A stretch of DNA of 18,763 nucleotides from Pseudomonas sp. (GTDB lineage: Bacteria; Pseudomonadota; Gammaproteobacteria; Pseudomonadales; Pseudomonadaceae): positions 1 to 18,763 of the forward strand of contig JAQZAY010000036.1 of the NCBI GenBank assembly GCA_029239415.1. The letters run 5' to 3'. The notes under the pieces are model-generated. The model searched no databases and had not been told where the DNA came from. It saw only the letters and a list, made by a program, of their open reading frames with translations. Below, one piece after another: positions 1 through 15,737 of the stretch; within the stretch, counting starts at the first letter, position 1, and every line of letters starts with the position of its first letter. Position numbers and translations under genes: made by a program.

Positions 1-1
1 T

Positions 2-970
2 GAACAGGATTGCGTCGATGGGCGGCCCGAGCGGCTGCTCAATCTCGCCTTGGGAACAGGCGTGGCACAGGACGAAGGCTGGCGCCGGCGCAAGGACGGT
101 ACGCAGTTCTGGGCGCTGGCGGCGATGGACGTGATCCATGACGAGCACGGCCAGGTGATCGGCCTGGCCAAGGTCACCCGCGATATCACTGACCGGCGCG
201 ACTCGGCCTTGCAGCTCGATGCCATGCGTGCACAGCTGTTCCAGGCGCAGAAGCTCGAAGCGCTGGGGCAGTTGACCGGCGGCCTGGCCCACGACTTCAA
301 CAACCTGCTGACCATCATTCTTGGCTCGGCAAGGTTGGCGCGCAACAGTCGCGACCCCAAGCGCATCGAGCGTCTGCTCGAGCATATCCTCGATGCCGGG
401 CAGCGCGGCTCCGAGCTTACCAGCCAGCTGCTCAGCTTTGCCCGGCACAAGGACCTCAGCGTCGCCCGTATCGAGGTGCCAGAGCTGTTCGATTCCACGC
501 GTGGGCTCGTGTCGCATGCCCTGCCAGCCAACGTGGAGCTTCACGAAGAACTCGCCCTTGGGCTTCCAGCCATCAAGGCCGATGCTGGCCAACTGCAGAT
601 GGTGCTGCTCAACCTCATCTTCAACGCCCGCGACGCGATCGACGAAGAGGGGGTCATCACGCTACAGGTCAATGCCACCGAGCTGCACGGCCAAGTAGAC
701 AACTTGCATGGGCACTTCGTGAGGATCGACGTGCGCGACACCGGGCATGGCATACCTGCCGATGTACTGCCGCGTATCTTCGAGCCGTTTTTCACCACCA
801 AACCGTTTGGCAAGGGCACGGGGCTTGGCCTGAGCCAGGTATATGGGTTTGCCAAGCAAAGCGATGGGGCGATTGCCGTGACCAGCGAGGTAGGCGTGGG
901 GACGTGCATGAGTCTCTACCTGCCGGTCTGGCAAGCGCACGATGACACACTGAACAGGACCGGTGACTGA
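2..970 (+). CDS. PAS-domain sensor histidine kinase, N-terminus cut by window edge
   Basis: The frame is open from the first bases, so the true start lies upstream; the TTG at 50 is only an internal codon. The visible part begins in the end of a PAS/PAC domain (RRKDGTQFWALAAMDVIHD, then DITDRR). It continues into a HisKA dimerisation helix with the phospho-acceptor His in GGLAHDFNNLL (codon 290-292). The HATPase_c domain shows an N box (LNLIFNARDAIDEEG), a G1 box (DTGHGIPADVL), an F box (FEPFFTTKPFG) and a G2 box (GKGTGLGLSQVYG). The HDFN form of the H box belongs to a kinase subgroup that often carries a C-terminal receiver. Here the protein ends just after the ATPase domain, and a separate receiver gene follows two genes later, so that receiver is the obvious partner (inference). 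The stop lies 2 bases before the KaiC-like gene, which suggests one operon. The signal sensed is not visible. Confidence 0.93.
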   Translation, partial: EQDCVDGRPERLLNLALGTGVAQDEGWRRRKDGTQFWALAAMDVIHDEHGQVIGLAKVTRDITDRRDSALQLDAMRAQLFQAQKLEALGQLTGGLAHDFNNLLTIILGSARLARNSRDPKRIERLLEHILDAGQRGSELTSQLLSFARHKDLSVARIEVPELFDSTRGLVSHALPANVELHEELALGLPAIKADAGQLQMVLLNLIFNARDAIDEEGVITLQVNATELHGQVDNLHGHFVRIDVRDTGHGIPADVLPRIFEPFFTTKPFGKGTGLGLSQVYGFAKQSDGAIAVTSEVGVGTCMSLYLPVWQAHDDTLNRTGD

Positions 971-972
971 CA

Positions 973-2418
973 ATGGTCGAATCGCTCAAGCGTCTTGCCA
1001 CGGGTATCACAGGGCTTGACCACCTGCTCAAGGGCGGGCTGGTGGCCGGGTCTTCCTATGTCATCCAGGGTCATCCCGGCTCGGGGAAAACCATCCTGGC
1101 CAACCAGCTGGCCTGCAACCATGTCAGGCAACAGGGACGGGTAGTGGTCGCGACCTTGCTGAGCGAGTCCCACGAGCGGCTGTTCCAGTACCTCTCGACC
1201 CTGGAATTCTTCGACCCGAGCATGGTCGGCAACCAGATTCAGTTCCTCAGCGCCTTGGCCACGCTGGAGGAGGGCGGCCTGGGCGAAGTGGTCAAGATCC
1301 TGCGCAAGGAAATCGCCCGCCAGCAGGCCAGCCTGCTGATCGTCGACGGCTTGCTCAACGCCCGGTCGCAGGCCGGCACCTCGATCGATACCAAGAAATT
1401 CATTTCCGAGCTGCAGGGGCATGCAGCCTTTGCAGGCTGCACCGTGCTGCTGCTGACCAATGCGCGGCTGGACGAGGCCAGCCCCGAGCACACCATGGTC
1501 GATGGAGTGATCGAGCTGGGCGAGCAGCTGTTCGGCAGCCGCGCGGTGCGCCAGATCCAGTTGCGCAAGACCCGCGGCAGCGATGCGCTGGCAGGCGTGC
1601 ATGAATTCGAGATCGGCCAGGCCGGGGTGCAGGTCTATCCACGCCTGGAGTCACTCTACAGCCAGCCCAGCCACCCTGGCACCGACTGGGTGACCCGCAT
1701 CACCAGCGGCACCGAGTCGCTCGACCGGGTGATCGGCGGTGGCCTGCCCAAAGGCGCCATCACGCTGGTGATGGGACCCTCTGGCATTGGCAAGACGTCC
1801 TTGGGCCTGAGCTTCCTTGCGGCTTCTACTGCGGCCGAGCCTGGCCTGCACTTCGGTTTCTACGAGACTCCCGAGCGCCTGCGCCTGAAGGCAGATGCGC
1901 TAGGCCACGATTTCAAGGCGCTCGAGCGCAAGGGCGTGCTGCACCTGTGCTGGCAACCGACCACCAAGGGGCTGCTGGACCAGCTCGGGGCACGCTTGCT
2001 GGACATCGTCCAGGCCCAGGGCATCAAGCGCGTGCTGCTCGACAGCCTGGGCGCCTTCAATCGTGTGACCAACAATCCGGCGCGCTTGAATGAGTTCCTG
2101 TGCGCGTTGACCGGTGAACTCCGGGCCCGCGGCGTCACTGTGATCATGACCTGGGAGATGCGTGACATCTTTGGCTCGGAGATCAATGCCCCCGCGTCAG
2201 ATCTCTCCAGCATCGTCGACAACCTGCTGCTCATGCGCTTTGTCGAACACGAGGCCCGGCTCAAGCGCATGCTGTCCGTCCTCAAGGTTCGAGACAGCGA
2301 TTTCAATCCGGAACTGCACGAGTTCCTCATCAGTCACAAAGGCATTACGCTGCACCAGAGTTTCGCGGGCGTCAGCGGCGTTCTCTCGGGTACACCCGTG
2401 CCCTCGAGCGAAGACTGA
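973..2418 (+). CDS. KaiC-like double-domain ATPase
   Basis: This 481-aa protein has two RecA-like KaiC lobes. Lobe 1 has Walker A GHPGSGKT (residues 33-40) and a Walker B-like LLIVDGL. Lobe 2 has Walker A GPSGIGKT (268-275) and RVLLDSL, followed by a stretch close to cyanobacterial KaiC (NNPARLNEFLCALTGEL). By eye against remembered cyanobacterial KaiC, the paired Glu residues after each Walker A become Ser64-Glu65 in lobe 1 and Tyr297-Glu298 in lobe 2, so only the second Glu is kept. The Ser431/Thr432 autophosphorylation pair lines up with Ser412-Ser413. No kaiA or kaiB is in view. The gene starts 2 bases after the kinase stop, and a receiver gene follows 16 bases after its own stop, so the three are probably co-expressed. 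Non-cyanobacterial KaiC proteins are ATPases with poorly known roles in signalling or stress timing; the role here is unknown. The ATG at 973 opens directly into the KaiC fold and has only a weak ribosome site. Confidence 0.92.
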   Translation: MVESLKRLATGITGLDHLLKGGLVAGSSYVIQGHPGSGKTILANQLACNHVRQQGRVVVATLLSESHERLFQYLSTLEFFDPSMVGNQIQFLSALATLEEGGLGEVVKILRKEIARQQASLLIVDGLLNARSQAGTSIDTKKFISELQGHAAFAGCTVLLLTNARLDEASPEHTMVDGVIELGEQLFGSRAVRQIQLRKTRGSDALAGVHEFEIGQAGVQVYPRLESLYSQPSHPGTDWVTRITSGTESLDRVIGGGLPKGAITLVMGPSGIGKTSLGLSFLAASTAAEPGLHFGFYETPERLRLKADALGHDFKALERKGVLHLCWQPTTKGLLDQLGARLLDIVQAQGIKRVLLDSLGAFNRVTNNPARLNEFLCALTGELRARGVTVIMTWEMRDIFGSEINAPASDLSSIVDNLLLMRFVEHEARLKRMLSVLKVRDSDFNPELHEFLISHKGITLHQSFAGVSGVLSGTPVPSSED

Positions 2419-2434
2419 TGATGGGCTGTGGGCC

Positions 2435-2794
2435 ATGAACACCATCCTGATCGTCGATGACGAGTACCTGATCGCCGATATCCTGGGCTTTGCGCTAGAG
2501 GACGCAGGCTTCTTGGTCGAAAAGGCCAGCAACGGACGCAAGGCCCTGGACGCCCTGCGGACCAAGCAGGTGGAACTGGTGATTACCGACTACATGATGC
2601 CGGTGCTCAATGGCGAAGAACTGGTGCGGGCCATCCGCGAAGAGTTGCAGCTGATCGATCTGCCGGTGATTCTCATGAGCGGCGCCCAGGCCAGCCACGG
2701 GCGTATAGGTCCACAGTTGTTCGCGGCAGTGTTCGACAAGCCGTTCGACATGGACAGGATGATCACCAAGGTGCGCGAATTGCTCGACACCTGA
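2435..2794 (+). CDS. Stand-alone receiver-domain response regulator
   Basis: This 119-aa protein is a single CheY-like receiver with no output domain. Key residues are the acidic pair Asp8-Asp9 (LIVDDE), the phospho-acceptor Asp52 (ITDYMMP), Ser82 in LMSGA and Lys102 in DKPFD. The start is the ATG at 2435: the frame stays open upstream, but that part is read inside the KaiC-like gene in another frame, and translation from 2435 opens directly into the first beta strand. It lies 16 bases after the KaiC-like stop and is the last gene of the kinase-KaiC-receiver operon. With no DNA-binding domain it should act by protein contact or as a phosphorelay intermediate. Pairing with the upstream kinase, which lacks its own receiver, is inferred from gene order. 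Confidence 0.93.
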   Translation: MNTILIVDDEYLIADILGFALEDAGFLVEKASNGRKALDALRTKQVELVITDYMMPVLNGEELVRAIREELQLIDLPVILMSGAQASHGRIGPQLFAAVFDKPFDMDRMITKVRELLDT

Positions 2795-2864
2795 GCTGGA
2801 AACAAGACCCCGCATGGGCGGGCAATCGGATCAAGCGCATCCGTGCGGCTTGAGGCAGCAGAGA
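2795..2864. other. Convergent intergenic spacer with two weak hairpins
   Basis: These 70 bases separate the receiver gene (+) from rsmE (-). One small hairpin has arms cccgc/gcggg (2809-2813 and 2818-2822). A second imperfect one pairs caagcgca with tgcggcttg (about 2834-2854). Neither is followed by a T run on either strand, so no convincing intrinsic terminator is visible for either convergent transcript. Confidence 0.4.
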
Positions 2865-3062
2865 TCAGTGTTGATCGTCTGCCTTTTCCGGCGCGGGGTT
2901 GCCTGCCTGGATACGCTTGAAGATCTCTTCGCGATGGACCTGCACGTCCTTTGGCGCATCGATGCCGATTCTCACTTGCATCCCTTTAACGCCCAAGATG
3001 GTGACTTTGATGTCATCGTCGATGACGATGCTTTCGCCAACCTTACGGGTGAGTATCAGCAT
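2865..3062 (-). CDS. rsmE: CsrA/RsmA-family translational regulator, RsmE-like
   Basis: This 65-aa protein is a full-length CsrA-family member starting [11 protein letters not shown]. It keeps the VHREEI segment with Arg44, the residue needed for RNA contact in this family. CsrA/Rsm dimers bind GGA motifs in hairpin loops, often over ribosome sites, to repress translation, and are titrated by RsmX/Y/Z small RNAs under GacS/GacA control. The start is the ATG at 3060-3062, preceded by a strong AAGGAG site. An in-frame upstream ATG would add 22 non-family residues and is rejected. Pseudomonas carries several paralogues; the name rsmE rests on sequence style (QAGNPAPEK tail) and remembered location, so the exact paralogue is less certain than the family. 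The gene stands alone, convergent with the KaiC operon. The GGA inside its own ribosome site would allow autoregulation (inference). Confidence 0.9.
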
Positions 3063-3185
3063 GTAATTCTCCTTGGTGGTGTAGAGGGTCGCGCAGTAGT
3101 CTTGCCACGCGACTGGGAGCGGGGCCACTTGGCCTGTCCCTCTTCCTTATCATTAAAGACGCTTTCGGCGGATATTAATTCCCCG

Positions 3186-3205
3186 CAGGCAAATTCTGTT
3201 GCCTG
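3186..3205. repeat. 7-bp inverted repeat upstream of rsmE
   Basis: The arms caggcaa (3186-3192) and ttgcctg (3199-3205) pair perfectly across a 6-base loop. On the + strand the hairpin is followed by tctttagg, which is too weak a T run to call a terminator. It may be part of the rsmE control region. Confidence 0.5.
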
Positions 3206-3220
3206 TCTTTAGGTGCAGGA

Positions 3221-3251
3221 GCTGACAGCAAACATGGATTTTGCTGTCAGC
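3221..3251 (+). repeat. Perfect 12-bp inverted repeat with GGA in the loop
   Basis: The arms gctgacagcaaa (3221-3232) and tttgctgtcagc (3240-3251) are exact reverse complements around the 7-base loop catggat. Read as + strand RNA, the loop region is ACAUGGAU, close to the CsrA consensus core ACARGGAU as I recall it, and presented in a hairpin loop as CsrA proteins prefer. No T run follows on either strand, so it does not look like an intrinsic terminator. It could instead be a DNA operator for a dimeric regulator or a processing signal. Confidence 0.6.
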
Positions 3252-3330
3252 GGAGGTGCTCTGGTGGCAAGGATAGGGGGCTTCGCTGCAGATGGGAAAT
3301 TTCTCTGCATGATGGAGGGCATAGACGCTC

Positions 3331-4356
3331 TCAATCGGCGGCAACTGCCGCTTGCAGGTTTTGCAGAAACTTCATCAGGGCCACTTCCTCGGGTTCCAAT
3401 CCCTTGCGCGGACGTGTGCGGGGCAAGGACGCAAGCTGTCCCAGGGTGAAGTGCTCCAGCACCGCCGGGTGGATGTAGCAACGCCTGCAGACGGCAGGCG
3501 TATTACCCAGCCGCGCGGCCACTTCGCGCACTGTCGTCGCGACTTGCCGCTTGGCTTCGGTCTCGGGCTCCCAGGTCAGCGGGCGTAGCAGGTGCAGCGC
3601 CAGGGCGCTGCCCGCCCAGGTGCGGTAGTCCTTGGCGGTGAAGTCGGCGCCGGTGAGGCTTTGCAAATACAGGTTGATGTCGCTAGAGCCGATGCTATGC
3701 CGTTGGCCATGCTCGTCCAGATACTGGAACAGTTCCTGTCCTGGCAGGTCGAGGCAGCGCTTGATGATCCCGGCCAGCCTGCGGTCGCGCAAGGTGACGT
3801 GATGCTCCACGCCGCGCTTGCCGCGGAAGTTGAAGCGGATGGTGCTGCCCTTGACCTCGACATGGCGGTTGCGCAACGTGGTCAGTCCGTAGGACTTGTT
3901 GTCGCGCAGGTAGCGGCGGTTGCCGATCCGGATCAGGGTATGGTCGAGCAGGCTGACGACCAGCGCCATGACCTTTTCGCGGTCCAGCCCCGGCCTCGAC
4001 AGGTGGGTGTCGACTTGCTGGCGCAGCTTGGGCAGGACCTGGGCGAAGGCCAGCATGCGTCCGTACTTGTGCTCGTCGCGGTGCTCGCGCCACTGCACGT
4101 GGTAGCGGTACTGCTTGCGCCCGCGTGCATCGCGGCCGGTGGCTTGCAGGTGACCCTGGGGGTCGCTGCAGATCCACACATCGGTGTAGGCCGGCGGGAT
4201 CACCAGGGCGGCGATGCGGGCCAGCGTGTCCTTGTCGGTGACGCGCTCGCCGTTGGCGTCGTGATAGATGAAGCGTCCGCGCCAGAGGCGCCGGGTCAGC
4301 CCCGGTTGGGTGTCGTCCACATAATGCAGGGTCTGGGGCAGAGGGCATTCGAGCAT
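3331..4356 (-). CDS. DNA topoisomerase IB (poxvirus/bacterial type)
   Basis: This 341-aa protein matches the small bacterial type IB topoisomerases related to the vaccinia enzyme. These relax supercoils by nicking one strand through a 3'-phosphotyrosine. The catalytic set can be placed by eye: Arg143 (LIRIGN), Lys180 (FRGKRG), Arg245 (KDYRTWAG), Asn285 (LGNTPAV, where the viral enzyme has His) and the nucleophile Tyr294 (CRRCYIHPAV). The Arg-to-Lys spacing of 37 and the Asn-to-Tyr spacing of 9 equal those I recall for the vaccinia and Deinococcus enzymes. The N-terminal domain and the C-terminal catalytic domain both look complete. The ATG at 4354-4356 has only a weak ribosome site. It lies 64 bases downstream of modC on the same strand, so read-through is possible, though its function has no evident link to molybdate uptake. 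Confidence 0.93.
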   Translation of the reverse strand: MLECPLPQTLHYVDDTQPGLTRRLWRGRFIYHDANGERVTDKDTLARIAALVIPPAYTDVWICSDPQGHLQATGRDARGRKQYRYHVQWREHRDEHKYGRMLAFAQVLPKLRQQVDTHLSRPGLDREKVMALVVSLLDHTLIRIGNRRYLRDNKSYGLTTLRNRHVEVKGSTIRFNFRGKRGVEHHVTLRDRRLAGIIKRCLDLPGQELFQYLDEHGQRHSIGSSDINLYLQSLTGADFTAKDYRTWAGSALALHLLRPLTWEPETEAKRQVATTVREVAARLGNTPAVCRRCYIHPAVLEHFTLGQLASLPRTRPRKGLEPEEVALMKFLQNLQAAVAAD

Positions 4357-11002: not shown

Positions 11003-11842
11003 ATGATCAAGAAATGCTTGTTCCCGGCCGCCGGTTACGGCACCCGCTTCCTGCCCGCTACCAAGGCAATGCCCAAGGAAATGCTGCCGGTGGTCAACAA
11101 GCCACTGATCCAGTATGGCGTTGAAGAAGCACTGGACGCTGGCCTGAGCGAGATCTCCATCGTGACCGGTCGCGGCAAGCGCGCCCTGGAAGACCACTTC
11201 GACATCAGCTACGAGCTCGAAACCCAGATCAAGGGCACCGACAAGGAAAAGTACCTGGTCGGTATCCGTCGCCTGCTCGACGAGTGCTCGTTCTCCTACA
11301 CCCGCCAGACCGAAATGAAAGGCCTGGGCCACGCGATCCTGACCGGTCGCCCACTGATCGGCGACGAGCCGTTCGCGGTGGTGCTGGCGGACGACCTGTG
11401 CGTCAATCTCGAAGGCGATGGCGTGCTCAAGCAGATGGTCAAGCTGTACGAGCAGTTCCGTTGCTCGATCGTTGCCATCCAGGAAGTAGACCCGCAGGAG
11501 ACCAACAAGTACGGCGTGATCGCCGGCGAGATGATCCGCGACGATATCTACCGCGTGCACTCCATGGTCGAGAAGCCCAAGCCCGAGGACGCTCCGTCCA
11601 ACCTGGCGATCATCGGCCGCTACATCCTGACCCCGGACATCTTCAAGCTGATCGAGGAAACCGAGCCGGGCAAGGGAGGCGAGATCCAGATCACCGACGC
11701 GCTGATGAAGCAGGCGCAGAACGGCTGCGTGATGGCCTACAAGTTCAAGGGCCAGCGCTTTGACTGCGGCGGCGCCGAGGGCTACATCGACGCGACCAAC
11801 TTCTGCTTCGAGCACTTCTACAAGACTGGCAAGGCTTACTAA
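11003..11842 (+). CDS. galU: UTP-glucose-1-phosphate uridylyltransferase GalU
   Basis: This 279-aa enzyme makes UDP-glucose from UTP and glucose-1-phosphate, feeding lipopolysaccharide core, exopolysaccharide and trehalose pathways in the cytoplasm. It shows the nucleotide-binding start CLFPAAGYGTRFLPATKAMP, then KEMLPVVNKPLIQYGVEEA, the VVLADDLC acidic motif, and KYGVIAGEM. The length equals the P. aeruginosa protein as I recall it. The ATG at 11003 follows TAAGGA at 7 bases. It has its own leader and is followed by a strong terminator, so it is probably transcribed alone or with partial read-through into gor. Confidence 0.97.
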   Translation: MIKKCLFPAAGYGTRFLPATKAMPKEMLPVVNKPLIQYGVEEALDAGLSEISIVTGRGKRALEDHFDISYELETQIKGTDKEKYLVGIRRLLDECSFSYTRQTEMKGLGHAILTGRPLIGDEPFAVVLADDLCVNLEGDGVLKQMVKLYEQFRCSIVAIQEVDPQETNKYGVIAGEMIRDDIYRVHSMVEKPKPEDAPSNLAIIGRYILTPDIFKLIEETEPGKGGEIQITDALMKQAQNGCVMAYKFKGQRFDCGGAEGYIDATNFCFEHFYKTGKAY

Positions 11843-11891
11843 GCCGCAAGCCGACCGCGGCAGCTCTGGTTTTTTCTTGCAGCTTGCAGCT
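11842..11891 (+). repeat. Long-loop inverted repeat just after galU
   Basis: agccgcaagc (11842-11851) pairs with gcttgcagct (11882-11891) apart from one G-U position, with a 30-base loop. The right side also holds a tandem copy of cttgcag (11876-11889). It begins at the galU stop codon and abuts the galU terminator, so it may add structure to the 3' end of the galU mRNA. Confidence 0.35.
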
Positions 11892-11920
11892 AAAAAAGCC
11901 ACCCTCAGGTGGCTTTTTTT
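11892..11920. terminator. Strong bidirectional intrinsic terminator between galU and gor
   Basis: The arms aaaaaagccacc (11892-11903) and ggtggctttttt (11908-11919) are exact reverse complements around the loop ctca, with T runs on both strands. It lies 49 bases after the galU stop and only 12 bases before the gor start codon. Confidence 0.92.
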
Positions 11921-11932
11921 GAGGAATCCATT

Positions 11933-13288
11933 GTGGCCTACGATTTTGATCTGTTCGTGATTGGTGCCGGGTCCGGCGGTGTGCGCGCGGCGCGCTTTGC
12001 CTCAGGCTTCGGCGCCAGGGTGGCGGTGGCTGAAAGCCGTTACCTGGGAGGCACCTGCGTCAACGTGGGGTGCGTGCCGAAGAAACTGCTGGTGTACGGC
12101 GCGCATTTCGCCGATGACTTCGAGCAGGCCTCGGGTTTCGGCTGGACAGTGGAGGATGCCCAGTTCGACTGGGGCACGCTGATCGCCAACAAGAACCGCG
12201 AGATCGAGCGTCTCAACGGCATCTACCGCAACCTGCTGGTCAACAGCGGCGTGACCCTGCTCCAGGGGCATGCGCGTATCACCGGCGCCCATGAAGTCGA
12301 AGTCGACGGCCAGCGCCATACCGCCGAGCGCATCCTGATTGCCGTTGGCGGCTGGCCGCAGATTCCCGACATCCCGGGCAAAGAGCTGGCCATCAGCTCC
12401 AACGAGGCTTTCTACCTCAAGGAGCTGCCGCGGCGCGTCCTGGTGGTGGGCGGTGGCTACATCGCCGTGGAATTCGCCGGCATCTTCCAGGGGCTGGGCG
12501 CCAGCACCACCTTGCTCTATCGCAAGGAACTGTTCCTGCGTGGCTTCGATGGCTCGGTGCGCATGCACCTGAAGGAAGAGCTCGAGAAACGCGGCCTTGA
12601 CCTGCAGTTCAACAGCGATATCCAGCGCATCGACAAGCAGGCGGATGGCAGCCTCAAGGCCACCCTCAAGGACGGCCGCGAACTGGTCACCGATTGCGTG
12701 TTCTATGCCACCGGCCGGCGCCCGATGCTCGACAATCTCGGACTGGAAAACACCGGCGTGGAACTCGACGAGAAGGGCTTCATCCGCGTCGACGACCACT
12801 ACCAGACCACCGCGCCCTCGATCCTTGCCATCGGCGATGTGATCGGCCGCGTCCAGCTCACTCCGGTGGCCCTGGCCGAAGGCATGGCCGTGGCGCGCCG
12901 TCTGTTCAAGCCCGAGCAGTATCGCCCGGTGGATTACCAGAACATCCCGACGGCAGTGTTCAGTCAGCCGCCGATCGGTACCGTTGGCCTGACCGAAGAG
13001 CAGGCGCTCGAGGCCGGGCACCAGGTGCAGGTATTCGAAAGCAGGTTCCGCCCCATGAAGCTGACCTTGACCGGCGTCCAGGAAAAGACCCTGATGAAGC
13101 TGGTGGTCGATGCCCAGACCGACCGTGTGCTCGGTTGCCACATGGTGGGTCCCGAGGCTGGCGAGATCGTCCAGGGCCTGGGCATCGCCCTCAAGGCTGG
13201 CGCGACCAAGCAGCAGTTCGACGAGACCATCGGCGTGCACCCGACCGCGGCCGAAGAATTCGTGACGATGCGTACGGTCACCCGCTGA
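11933..13288 (+). CDS. gor: Glutathione-disulfide reductase
   Basis: This 451-aa FAD enzyme reduces oxidised glutathione with NADPH in the cytoplasm. It shows the FAD motif FVIGAGSGG at the N-terminus, the redox-active pair Cys42/Cys47 in [13 protein letters not shown], the NAD(P) motif [13 protein letters not shown] followed by [13 protein letters not shown], the second FAD motif ILAIGDVIG and the C-terminal acid-base His436 in [14 protein letters not shown] chose GTG at 11933: it follows GAGG by 8 bases and gives [13 protein letters not shown]. The frame opens earlier at another GTG (11909), but that lies inside the terminator stem. Its neighbours ahpC and ahpF complete a peroxide and thiol defence block. 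Confidence 0.96.
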
Positions 13289-13300
13289 TGGGGTAAGCCA

Positions 13301-13344
13301 AGGCCTCATCGCCTGTAGGAGCGGGCTTGCCCGCGATGAGGCCT
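13301..13344. repeat. REP element (P. putida type)
   Basis: The outer arms aggcctcatcgc (13301-13312) and gcgatgaggcct (13333-13344) are exact reverse complements. Inside sits the palindrome gcgggcttgcccgc (13321-13334), next to ctgtaggagc. On the - strand the core GCGGGCAAGCCCGCTCCTAC matches the repetitive extragenic palindrome known from P. putida. It lies 12 bases after the gor stop and may protect or end the gor transcript. Confidence 0.85.
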
Positions 13345-13377
13345 CAGCTCGATCCCTTCTATTAGTAAACCCTTGTT

Positions 13378-13414
13378 ATAGCCAAAACCAATCATCAACA
13401 TGAGCTTTGCCAAT
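13378..13414 (+). promoter_or_regulatory. OxyR-like box upstream of ahpC
   Basis: Four tetranucleotides sit at exact 7-base intervals: ATAG (13378), CAAT (13389), ATGA (13400) and CAAT (13411). The OxyR pattern is ATAG-N7-CTAT-N7-ATAG-N7-CTAT; 12 of 16 defined positions match. A TAGGAT hexamer at 13438-13443 could be the -10, which would place this box against the -35 region, as at OxyR-activated promoters. ahpC is a classical OxyR target, so context supports the call. Confidence 0.55.
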
Positions 13415-13436
13415 GAGCCTTTCTCGGCCTCATTGG
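13410..13436. repeat. 8-bp inverted repeat in the ahpC promoter region
   Basis: The arms ccaatgag (13410-13417) and ctcattgg (13429-13436) are exact reverse complements around an 11-base loop. It overlaps the last quarter of the OxyR-like box and the presumed -35 region of ahpC, so it may be a second operator. Confidence 0.4.
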
Positions 13437-13485
13437 TTAGGATTCTTCCATCAAGTTTTTCCAACCCCCTGAAGGAGCGTCATTC

Positions 13486-14049
13486 ATGCCTATCATCAAC
13501 AGCCAGGTAAAACCGTTCAACGCTACCGCTTACCACAACGGCGAGTTCGTCGACGTGTCCGAAGCCAACCTCAAGGGCAAATGGTCGGTAGTCTTCTTCT
13601 ACCCAGCCGACTTCACCTTCGTCTGCCCAACCGAGCTGGGCGACCTGGCTGACAACTATGACGAGTTCCAGAAACTCGGCGTCGAGATCTACGGCGTGTC
13701 CACCGACACCCACTTCACCCACAAAGCGTGGCACGACACCTCGGAAACCATCGGCAAGATCAAGTACCCGTTGATCGGTGACCCGACCCACGTCATCTCG
13801 CGCAACTTCGACGTGCTGATCGAAGAAGCCGGCCTGGCCGATCGCGGTACCTTCGTGATCAACCCGGAAGGCCAGATCAAGATCGTCGAGCTCAACGATG
13901 GCGGCGTAGGCCGTGACGCGACCGAGCTGCTGCGCAAGGTCAAGGCTGCCCAGTACGTTGCCGCTCACCCAGGCGAAGTCTGCCCGGCCAAGTGGAAAGA
14001 AGGCGAGGCCACCCTGGCCCCATCGCTGGACCTGGTCGGCAAGATCTAA
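13486..14049 (+). CDS. ahpC: Alkyl hydroperoxide reductase subunit C (2-Cys peroxiredoxin)
   Basis: This 187-aa peroxiredoxin reduces hydrogen peroxide, organic peroxides and peroxynitrite in the cytoplasm and is recycled by AhpF. The peroxidatic Cys47 lies in [13 protein letters not shown] and the resolving Cys166 in [13 protein letters not shown]; length and both ends match enterobacterial AhpC. The ATG at 13486 has a strong GAAGGAG site. The long AT-rich leader carries an OxyR-like box, and a strong terminator follows the gene. Confidence 0.97.
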
Positions 14050-14111
14050 GACCGTGAGCCAGCCGCGGGCGGTGAGCAACCGCCACCTCTAAGTTCTCAC
14101 TGCCCCGCCAG

Positions 14112-14144
14112 AACGCCCGGGCACCTGTGCCTGGGCGTTTTTAT
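14112..14144 (+). terminator. Intrinsic terminator between ahpC and ahpF
   Basis: aacgcccgggcac (14112-14124) pairs with gtgcctgggcgtt (14127-14139) with one wobble position and a 2-base loop in strict pairing, followed by ttttat. It ends about 30 bases before ahpF, so it should set a high ahpC to ahpF ratio if ahpF is fed by read-through. Confidence 0.88.
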
Positions 14145-14174
14145 TTGCACAATCGAAAAAAGGAAATCGCCCGT

Positions 14175-15737
14175 ATGTTGGACGCCACGCTTAAAACGCA
14201 ACTCAAAGCCTACCTGGAGCGGGTCACCCAGCCGATCGAGATCGTTGCATCTCTCGACGACGGCGCGAAATCCCGCGAAATGCACGACCTGCTGGCCGAA
14301 ATCACCAGCCTGTCGACCCAGATTTCCCTGCGCGTGGACGGTGACGACAGCCGTCGCCCATCGTTCTCGCTCAACCGTCCAGGGGGCGATATCAGCCTGC
14401 GCTTCGCCGGCATCCCCATGGGCCACGAATTCACCTCGCTGGTGCTGGCGCTGCTGCAAGTCGGCGGCCATCCCTCCAAGGCCAGTGCCGAGGTGATTGC
14501 GCAAATCGCTTCGCTCAAGGGCGAATTCAATTTCGAGACCTACTTCTCGCTGTCTTGCCAGAACTGCCCTGACGTGGTCCAGGCGCTGAACCTGATGGCG
14601 GTGCTCAACCCCAACGTGCGCCACGTGGCCATCGACGGCGCGCTGTTCCAGGACGAAGTCGAGGCACGCAAGGTCATGGCCGTGCCGAGCCTGTACCTCA
14701 ACGGCGAAGTGTTCGGCCAGGGCCGCATGGGCCTGGAGGAAATCCTCGGCAAGATCGACACCAGTGCAGGCCAGCGCCAGGCCGAGAAGATCGACGCCAA
14801 GGACGCCTTCGACGTGCTGGTGGTCGGCGGTGGCCCGGCCGGTGCCGCTGCTGCCATCTACGCGGCGCGCAAAGGCATTCGTACCGGTGTCGCGGCCGAG
14901 CGCTTCGGCGGCCAGGTGCTTGACACCATGGCGATCGAGAACTTCATCTCGATCCAGGAAACCGAAGGCCCCAAGCTGGCCAGCGCCCTGGAAGAGCATG
15001 TCAAGCAGTACGACGTCGACATCATGAACCTGCAACGCGGCGAGGCGCTGATCCCGGCCACCGATGGCGGCCTGCACCAGGTCCGCCTGGCCAGTGGTGC
15101 CTCGCTCAAGGCCAAGACCGTGATCCTGGCCACCGGTGCCCGCTGGCGCGAAATGAACGTGCCGGGCGAGAAGGAGTACCGCAACCGTGGCGTGGCCTAC
15201 TGCCCGCATTGCGACGGCCCGCTGTTCAAGGGCAAGCGCGTGGCGGTGATCGGCGGGGGCAACTCCGGCGTCGAGGCGGCGATCGACCTGGCGGGGATCG
15301 TGGCGCATGTGACACTGATCGAGTTCGACAGCCAGCTGCGTGCCGATGCGGTGTTGCAGCGCAAGCTGCACAGCCTGCCCAATGTCAAGGTAATCACCAG
15401 CGCGCTGACCACCGAAGTGCTGGGCGATGGCCAGAAGGTCAACGGCCTGCGCTACCAGGATCGCACCGGTGGCGATGTGCATGACGTGCAGCTCGAAGGC
15501 ATCTTCGTGCAGATCGGCCTGCTGCCCAACACCGACTGGCTCAAGGGCACGGTCGAATTGTCGCCACGCGGCGAGATCATCGTCGACGCCAAGGGCCAGA
15601 CCAACGTGCCGGGCGTGTTTGCCGCAGGTGACGTGACCACCGTGCCGTACAAGCAGATCGTGATTGCCGTGGGCGAGGGCGCCAAGGCCTCCCTGGCGGC
15701 CTTCGACCACCTGATCCGTACCACCGCGCCGGCGTGA
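14175..15737 (+). CDS. ahpF: Alkyl hydroperoxide reductase subunit F
   Basis: This 520-aa flavoprotein passes electrons from NADH to AhpC. The N-terminal double-thioredoxin-like domain carries Cys128/Cys131 (SCQNCPD). The thioredoxin-reductase-like part has the FAD motif [12 protein letters not shown] (residues 216-227), the redox pair Cys343/Cys346 (YCPHCDGP), the nucleotide motif [12 protein letters not shown] and the FAD-binding [15 protein letters not shown] near the C-terminus. All centres are intact and the length is normal. The ATG at 14175 is preceded by AGGAAA at 8-14 bases; the frame opens earlier, in the terminator, without family similarity. Confidence 0.97.

Follow-up and report, generated by a model that had tools for sequence, protein, structure and literature searches.

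A nearly obligate pairing of a KaiC-like ATPase with a stand-alone receiver, and an optional histidine kinase, in relatives of Pseudomonas putida

A two-lobed KaiC-like ATPase and a stand-alone receiver form a nearly obligate pair in the genomes that we have compared, and the histidine kinase encoded in front of them in part of these genomes is an extra found only at KaiC loci. The locus was examined in a stretch of 18,763 nucleotides from a Pseudomonas sp. (contig JAQZAY010000036.1), called here the window. To judge from the sequences, the most likely chain of events would run from the kinase to the receiver, from the receiver to KaiC and from there onward.

The three-gene locus

A histidine kinase of the HDFN type, the two-lobed KaiC ATPase and the stand-alone receiver lie on one strand of the window with gaps of 2 and 16 bases (Table 1), in agreement with the first-pass annotation. 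As had also been claimed there, the kinase is without a receiver domain of its own: Pfam detected only the end of a PAS domain, HisKA and HATPase_c, the last two identifying it as a two-component kinase. The complete relative in locus L001 has one PAS domain, and no KaiB domain was found in either of these two kinases with Pfam at the thresholds used. There were no Rfam matches to RNA elements at gathering thresholds, and promoter-like and terminator-like patterns in positions 1-3600 did not stand out from shuffled sequence.

Table 1. Coordinates of the features of the locus in the window.
Feature	Position	Strand	Remarks
Histidine kinase, 5' end cut by window edge	2..970	+	end of PAS, HisKA, HATPase_c
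Phospho-acceptor His codon, H-box LAHDFNN	290..292	+	read from sequence
KaiC-like ATPase, two RecA-type lobes, 481 aa	973..2418	+	
Walker A of KaiC lobe 1 (GHPGSGKT)	1069..1092	+	read from sequence
Walker A of KaiC lobe 2 (GPSGIGKT)	1774..1797	+	read from sequence
Ser412-Ser413, at the KaiC phosphorylation-site positions S431/T432	2206..2211	+	141-row family comparison
Stand-alone receiver (single-domain response regulator), 119 aa	2435..2794	+	
Phospho-acceptor Asp52 codon of receiver	2588..2590	+	read from sequence

Pairing of KaiC and receiver in relatives

We have compared the locus in two samples. The first comes from a scan of GTDB species genomes in which 139 relatives were confirmed; its best 80 loci were retained. 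The second and less biased sample was an even draw of 149 genomes from the genus of the nearest relative. The two collections overlap in some genomes, so that their counts are not to be summed, and the counts are not independent because the surveyed species are related. Of the 149 genus genomes, 119 contain a KaiC-like match (E 1e-20 or better) and 61, with 62 loci, a KaiC of the window type (E below 1e-100, read off the match table). Sixty-one of these loci were fetched as new records, the remaining one being L016 of the GTDB collection. Two of the 62 KaiC genes (L226 and L227) are in pieces.

The receiver directly follows KaiC in all of the best 80 loci of the 139 relatives. In the genus draw it does so at 61 of 62 loci (60 newly fetched plus L016); in the single miss, L228, KaiC runs into the contig end. 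The window-type kinase precedes KaiC in 71 of the best 80 loci and in 33 of the 62 (32 newly fetched plus L016). Those without it among the best 80 were L061, L064, L066, L070, L071, L075, L076, L079 (where the sequence covers only about 900 bases upstream) and L080. In the genus draw the kinase is missing beside KaiC at 29 loci, 28 of which have the receiver, the other being L228. The first-pass annotation had made its reading depend on a gene order kept across relatives; KaiC and receiver keep it wherever the order is visible, the kinase in only part of them. The near-constant pairing, set against this patchier presence of the kinase, suggests a core of KaiC and receiver, to which the kinase is an input that is optional and sometimes replaced.

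The convergent gene csrA was considered as a further member of the unit. It adjoins the receiver in 55 of the best 80 loci (L001-L052, L057, L069, L073); the remaining 25 showed no csrA, and we took the gene as a lineage neighbour. Some individual loci deserve mention. L039 comes from a record with the title Pantoea sp. Cy-639, possibly misnamed: the genes round KaiC stand in the P. putida-type order, with csrA and modC downstream. One genome, Pseudomonas sp. dw_358, contains three KaiC-receiver pairs of the window type (L054, L070, L071), with the window-type kinase directly upstream only at L054. At L060 (7952-11555, + strand) a second, distant KaiC gene and a 692-residue kinase come directly after the KaiC-receiver pair.

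Orthologues of the kinase and of the receiver were searched for in the same 149 genus genomes. Receivers scoring at least 106 bits were found at 61 loci in 60 genomes, and all 61 adjoin a window-type KaiC. Three matches of 87-99 bits (one partial, two full) are not beside a full window-type KaiC, and two more, at 61 bits, lie inside long proteins. Kinases above 400 bits occur in 33 genomes, each adjoining a window-type KaiC (33/33), and the next match reaches 355 bits. From there down the matches are mostly longer kinases with 42-48% identity; one of them (in G100) is at a window-type KaiC locus, namely the hybrid kinase of L167. The genomes of the 29 kinase-less genus loci contain no kinase match above 400 bits elsewhere. 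A fusion of KaiC to a receiver was not seen among the 120 matches listed of 2,429 relatives, the listed ones being close relatives only. Co-regulation alone could explain both the adjacency and the co-occurrence.

The three receivers of 87-99 bits lie at L230, L231 and L232. L230 (G064:C1:3489000-3506000) contains at 11760-14376 on the - strand a 189-residue KaiC-like frame, a 541-residue kinase and a family receiver in a row, as if a KaiC-kinase-receiver unit had decayed or been shortened. The receivers of L231 (5351-5860, + strand, near a contig end) and L232 (5341-5739, - strand) score 157 and 153 bits with the family profile and have no KaiC beside them; both genomes carry a full KaiC-receiver pair elsewhere.

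Turnover of the kinase

Mapped on the KaiC tree, the presence of the kinase requires at least five gains or losses (FastTree, with some forks open), and the well-supported branches alone force two or three changes. At several loci another kinase was found in place of the window type. In L175 a kinase of the GAF-HisKA type stops 60 bases short of KaiC, in L080 one of the PAS-HWE type stops 161 bases short of it, and in L167 a hybrid PAS-HisKA-receiver kinase comes after the receiver. L169 has a frame that matches kinases weakly (25 bits), with its end 475 bases ahead of KaiC. In the five other kinase-less loci scanned with Pfam the upstream gene does not code for a kinase, and the products are UvdE (L166), an aminotransferase (L168, not the nearest frame), a manganese catalase (L170), an aldehyde dehydrogenase (L173) and a DsbA-like protein (L075). 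The UvdE endonuclease and the manganese catalase, both upstream of kinase-less KaiC-receiver pairs, hint at a stress context.

In the 103 adjacent kinases of relatives, the H, N, G1 and G2 box patterns were found in 102, 100, 102 and 102, respectively. Two kinds of input were tried and rejected. LOV domains bind flavin through a cysteine motif, NC[RK][FY]L, that appears in none of the 103; this check covers the kinases of relatives, the window kinase itself being without the N-terminal part of its PAS. As for a membrane sensor, the highest mean hydropathy over 19 residues among the 103 was 1.68. Because this indicates no clear transmembrane segment, we have treated the kinase as soluble.

Residues of KaiC and of the receiver

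The KaiC of the window consists of two tandem KaiC/RecA lobes over its full length, and structure prediction, carried out for the monomer only, gave the KaiC fold over the full length too. It scored 148 bits with the NCBIfam model circ_KaiC (TIGR02655), whose curated cut-off is 546, and 221 bits with PRK09302, whose cut-off is 408, both scores falling short. Residues were counted over 141 rows (80 + 61 loci, some of them identical); site labels in lobe 1 read shifted by one, as the reference chain runs one higher there. The Walker A lysines and Walker B aspartates K39, D125, K274 and D357 are kept in 139, 140, 141 and 140 rows, the rest being gaps, and G33, P35, G36, G38, K39 and T40 are invariant in an alignment of 26 KaiC rows. 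At the phosphorylation-site positions, Ser412 is kept in 140 of the 141 rows (one gap) and Ser413 in 131, with seven Gly, one Asn, one Cys and one gap in the others; the same single row has the gap at both. In the 26-row alignment residues 170-179 of lobe 1 (window 1480-1509), SPEHTMVDGV, are also invariant. They stand where lobe 2 has its phosphosite segment, and are possibly a functional site.

The catalytic glutamates show a different picture. One of the two residues of each pair (E77/E78 and E318/E319) is kept in each lobe, as E65 and E298, and Ser64 and Tyr297 are found at the others. In the lobe-1 pair the first glutamate gives way to Ser in 87 rows, Ala in 50 and Cys in two, with two gaps, and Tyr occupies the E318 position in 139 of the 141 rows (one His, one gap). 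The autokinase reaction of KaiC uses E318 as its general base. The Tyr at its position argues against a classical KaiC autokinase and makes the activity uncertain; the missing glutamates limit the case for an autokinase, not the membership in the KaiC fold family. The Ser-Ser pair has a counterpart in KaiC-RS, the KaiC from Rhodobacter. PDB titles mention S413E/S414E for that protein, and the structure of an E318A mutant has been solved.

In the receiver, all 140 relatives compared, including the 37 kinase-less ones, keep D8, D9, D52 and K102 and have S or T at position 82, the active site of a receiver. Conservation by stretch was compared over 121 distinct rows, 85 with kinase and 36 without, with helix borders assumed from the receiver fold rather than predicted. 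Residues 10-24, taken as the first helix, are the best conserved helical stretch compared in both groups (0.885 against 0.696 for the rest with kinase; 0.848 against 0.645 without). Residues 98-118, by contrast, are conserved at 0.725 where the kinase is present and relax to 0.506 where it is missing. Since helix 1 is conserved in both, a partner other than the window-type kinase may constrain it. The pattern is suggestive only, of a partner for helix 1 common to the two groups and of something served by the beta5-alpha5 part that is lost along with the kinase. Alternatively, the constraint on helix 1 could come from another kinase instead of KaiC.

KaiA, KaiB and other KaiC families

KaiA was found in none of the 149 genus genomes and KaiB in two, so that the pair expected of a KaiABC clock is not there; these counts cover the relatives in the genus. 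KaiB is absent from the nearest relative. The other KaiC rows among the matches listed in the genus belong mostly to two groups, B and C, with about 30% identity. Family B (L150-L157, L186) has a short kinase directly after KaiC in 7 of 9 fetched loci, and family C (L158-L165, L188) a hybrid HK-REC kinase in the same place in 9 of 9. At the phosphosite positions family C has Ser/Thr-Tyr and family B Ala-Phe. In L142-L145 a KaiC, two KaiB genes, otherwise rare, and a hybrid kinase stand in a row (L143 and L144 from the genus draw, L142 and L145 from the other collection).

A proposed mechanism and its alternatives

In the explanation that we prefer, still tentatively, KaiC and the receiver form a signalling module served by a sensor kinase that is dedicated to it but optional. 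This PAS kinase, apparently soluble, would sense an intracellular cue, autophosphorylate and hand its phosphate to Asp52 of the receiver. Because it has no output domain, the receiver must act by binding, and because of the near-obligate pairing its business would be with KaiC; the genomic evidence points to the receiver as a direct partner. The receiver might then dock on a KaiC hexamer and alter its ATPase or the state of Ser412/Ser413, and KaiC would be the effector or hub that passes the signal on to a further target. Where the kinase is missing, another cellular kinase may load the receiver. A narrower version is possible, if rather doubtful: a KaiC switch free of KaiA and KaiB, in which the phosphorylated receiver would be the direct regulator of the ATPase and of Ser412/Ser413 and kinases would be swapped as inputs.

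The first-pass annotation had placed KaiC inside a two-component pair, where it might either gate phosphotransfer or be itself the output. The tie to two-component proteins is borne out by conserved order and co-occurrence. Gating, with KaiC binding the kinase, setting the flow of phosphate to the receiver and the receiver acting on a distant target, has become unlikely. In its favour, the cyanobacterial clock is bound by the kinases SasA and CikA, kinase orthologues above 400 bits are confined to window-type KaiC loci, and in most fetched loci of family B and all of family C a kinase comes directly after KaiC. Gating would need a kinase, and therefore the 29 of 62 genus loci lacking the window type, with nothing above 400 bits elsewhere in their genomes, count against it, as does the lack of a KaiB domain, at the Pfam thresholds used, in the kinases of the window and L001; it could still hold if kinases encoded elsewhere serve. 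The idea is weakened because KaiC and receiver stay together at these loci and at the nine kinase-less ones of the best 80. KaiC as the output fits better, with KaiC and a phosphorylatable receiver persisting without the kinase, and the comparison as a whole favours a receiver that would act on KaiC over a KaiC that gates the kinase.

We give still less credit to an hourglass or clock independent of KaiA and KaiB, based on slow ATP hydrolysis and phosphorylation of Ser412/Ser413, with the receiver entraining it or reading it out. The Ser-Ser pair resembles S413/S414 of KaiC-RS, and an abstract reports, as preliminary, daily growth variation of P. putida; according to a review the variation takes about 24 h under light-dark cycles, with one further cycle in constant conditions. 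Against this stand the Tyr in place of E318, the replacement of the first lobe-1 glutamate by Ser or Ala in 137 of 141 rows and the KaiA and KaiB counts above, and the literature passages covered hold no experiment that ties a locus of this type to rhythms. The least probable reading, which we think very unlikely, is that the kinase and the receiver are the two halves of a split HK-REC protein, with KaiC as a passive passenger of the operon. Fused HK-REC kinases do occur at other KaiC loci of the genus, but the kept pair is KaiC and receiver, with the kinase as the variable part, and the receivers of hybrid kinases reach about 60 bits at most with the window-type receiver profile; a stand-alone receiver near a family-C locus scores 62 bits, no less than they do.

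For the preferred module, with the receiver acting on KaiC, the appeal is practical. How KaiC acts outside cyanobacteria, without KaiA and KaiB, is a general question. KaiC and its one 119-residue receiver, in relatives of the laboratory species P. putida, offer a two-protein system for it: partner, input site (Asp52) and readout (the ATPase and Ser412/Ser413) are all accessible to direct tests.

Comparison with known systems

The arrangement of kinase, KaiC and receiver is not novel in itself, as two earlier papers (PMC2949598; PMC3164672) already have it in print. In the literature searched, from which subscription journals are mostly absent, we recognised no functional study of a locus of this type. 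A passage published in 2010 (PMC2949598) describes kaiC, a sensory histidine kinase and a response regulator of P. putida KT2440 as a 'three-component system', the same three parts in the same species group, in one sentence that goes into neither conservation nor function. From the three-gene loci under the name P. putida (L006, L023, L034, L037, L046), we infer that the KT2440 system is orthologous to ours. Of interest as well is PSEEN2280, a locus tag of P. entomophila. The 2011 genome paper that compares kaiC contexts (PMC3164672) lists it, in the text available, with the Ser-Ser profile of the window KaiC; that text gives no neighbours of the gene. In a third ('black') group of that comparison kaiC is frequently followed by the gene of a single-domain receiver. 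The group is rated there as less conserved (PMC3164672, same text), whereas the KaiC-receiver pair is near invariant in our samples. What is new here is the near-obligate pairing with an optional, replaceable kinase.

The cyanobacterial KaiABC system with SasA/CikA-RpaA shares with this locus the full-length KaiC fold and the link to two-component signalling. It differs in that KaiA and KaiB are absent from nearly all the relatives searched, the receiver here has no output domain and Tyr is found at the E318 position. Closer at hand, families B and C and the KaiC-KaiB-KaiB-hybrid kinase loci of Pseudomonas also encode KaiC beside histidine kinases; in B and C, however, identity is only about 30% and the kinase comes after KaiC, the C kinases being fused to a receiver as well. 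In Archaea, KaiC hubs and KaiC-REC fusions have been described, the latter reported only from Methanosarcinaceae in the part of the source covered (PMC5847659). There the ATPase is joined to the receiver in one protein, whereas in the window the two are encoded by separate genes.
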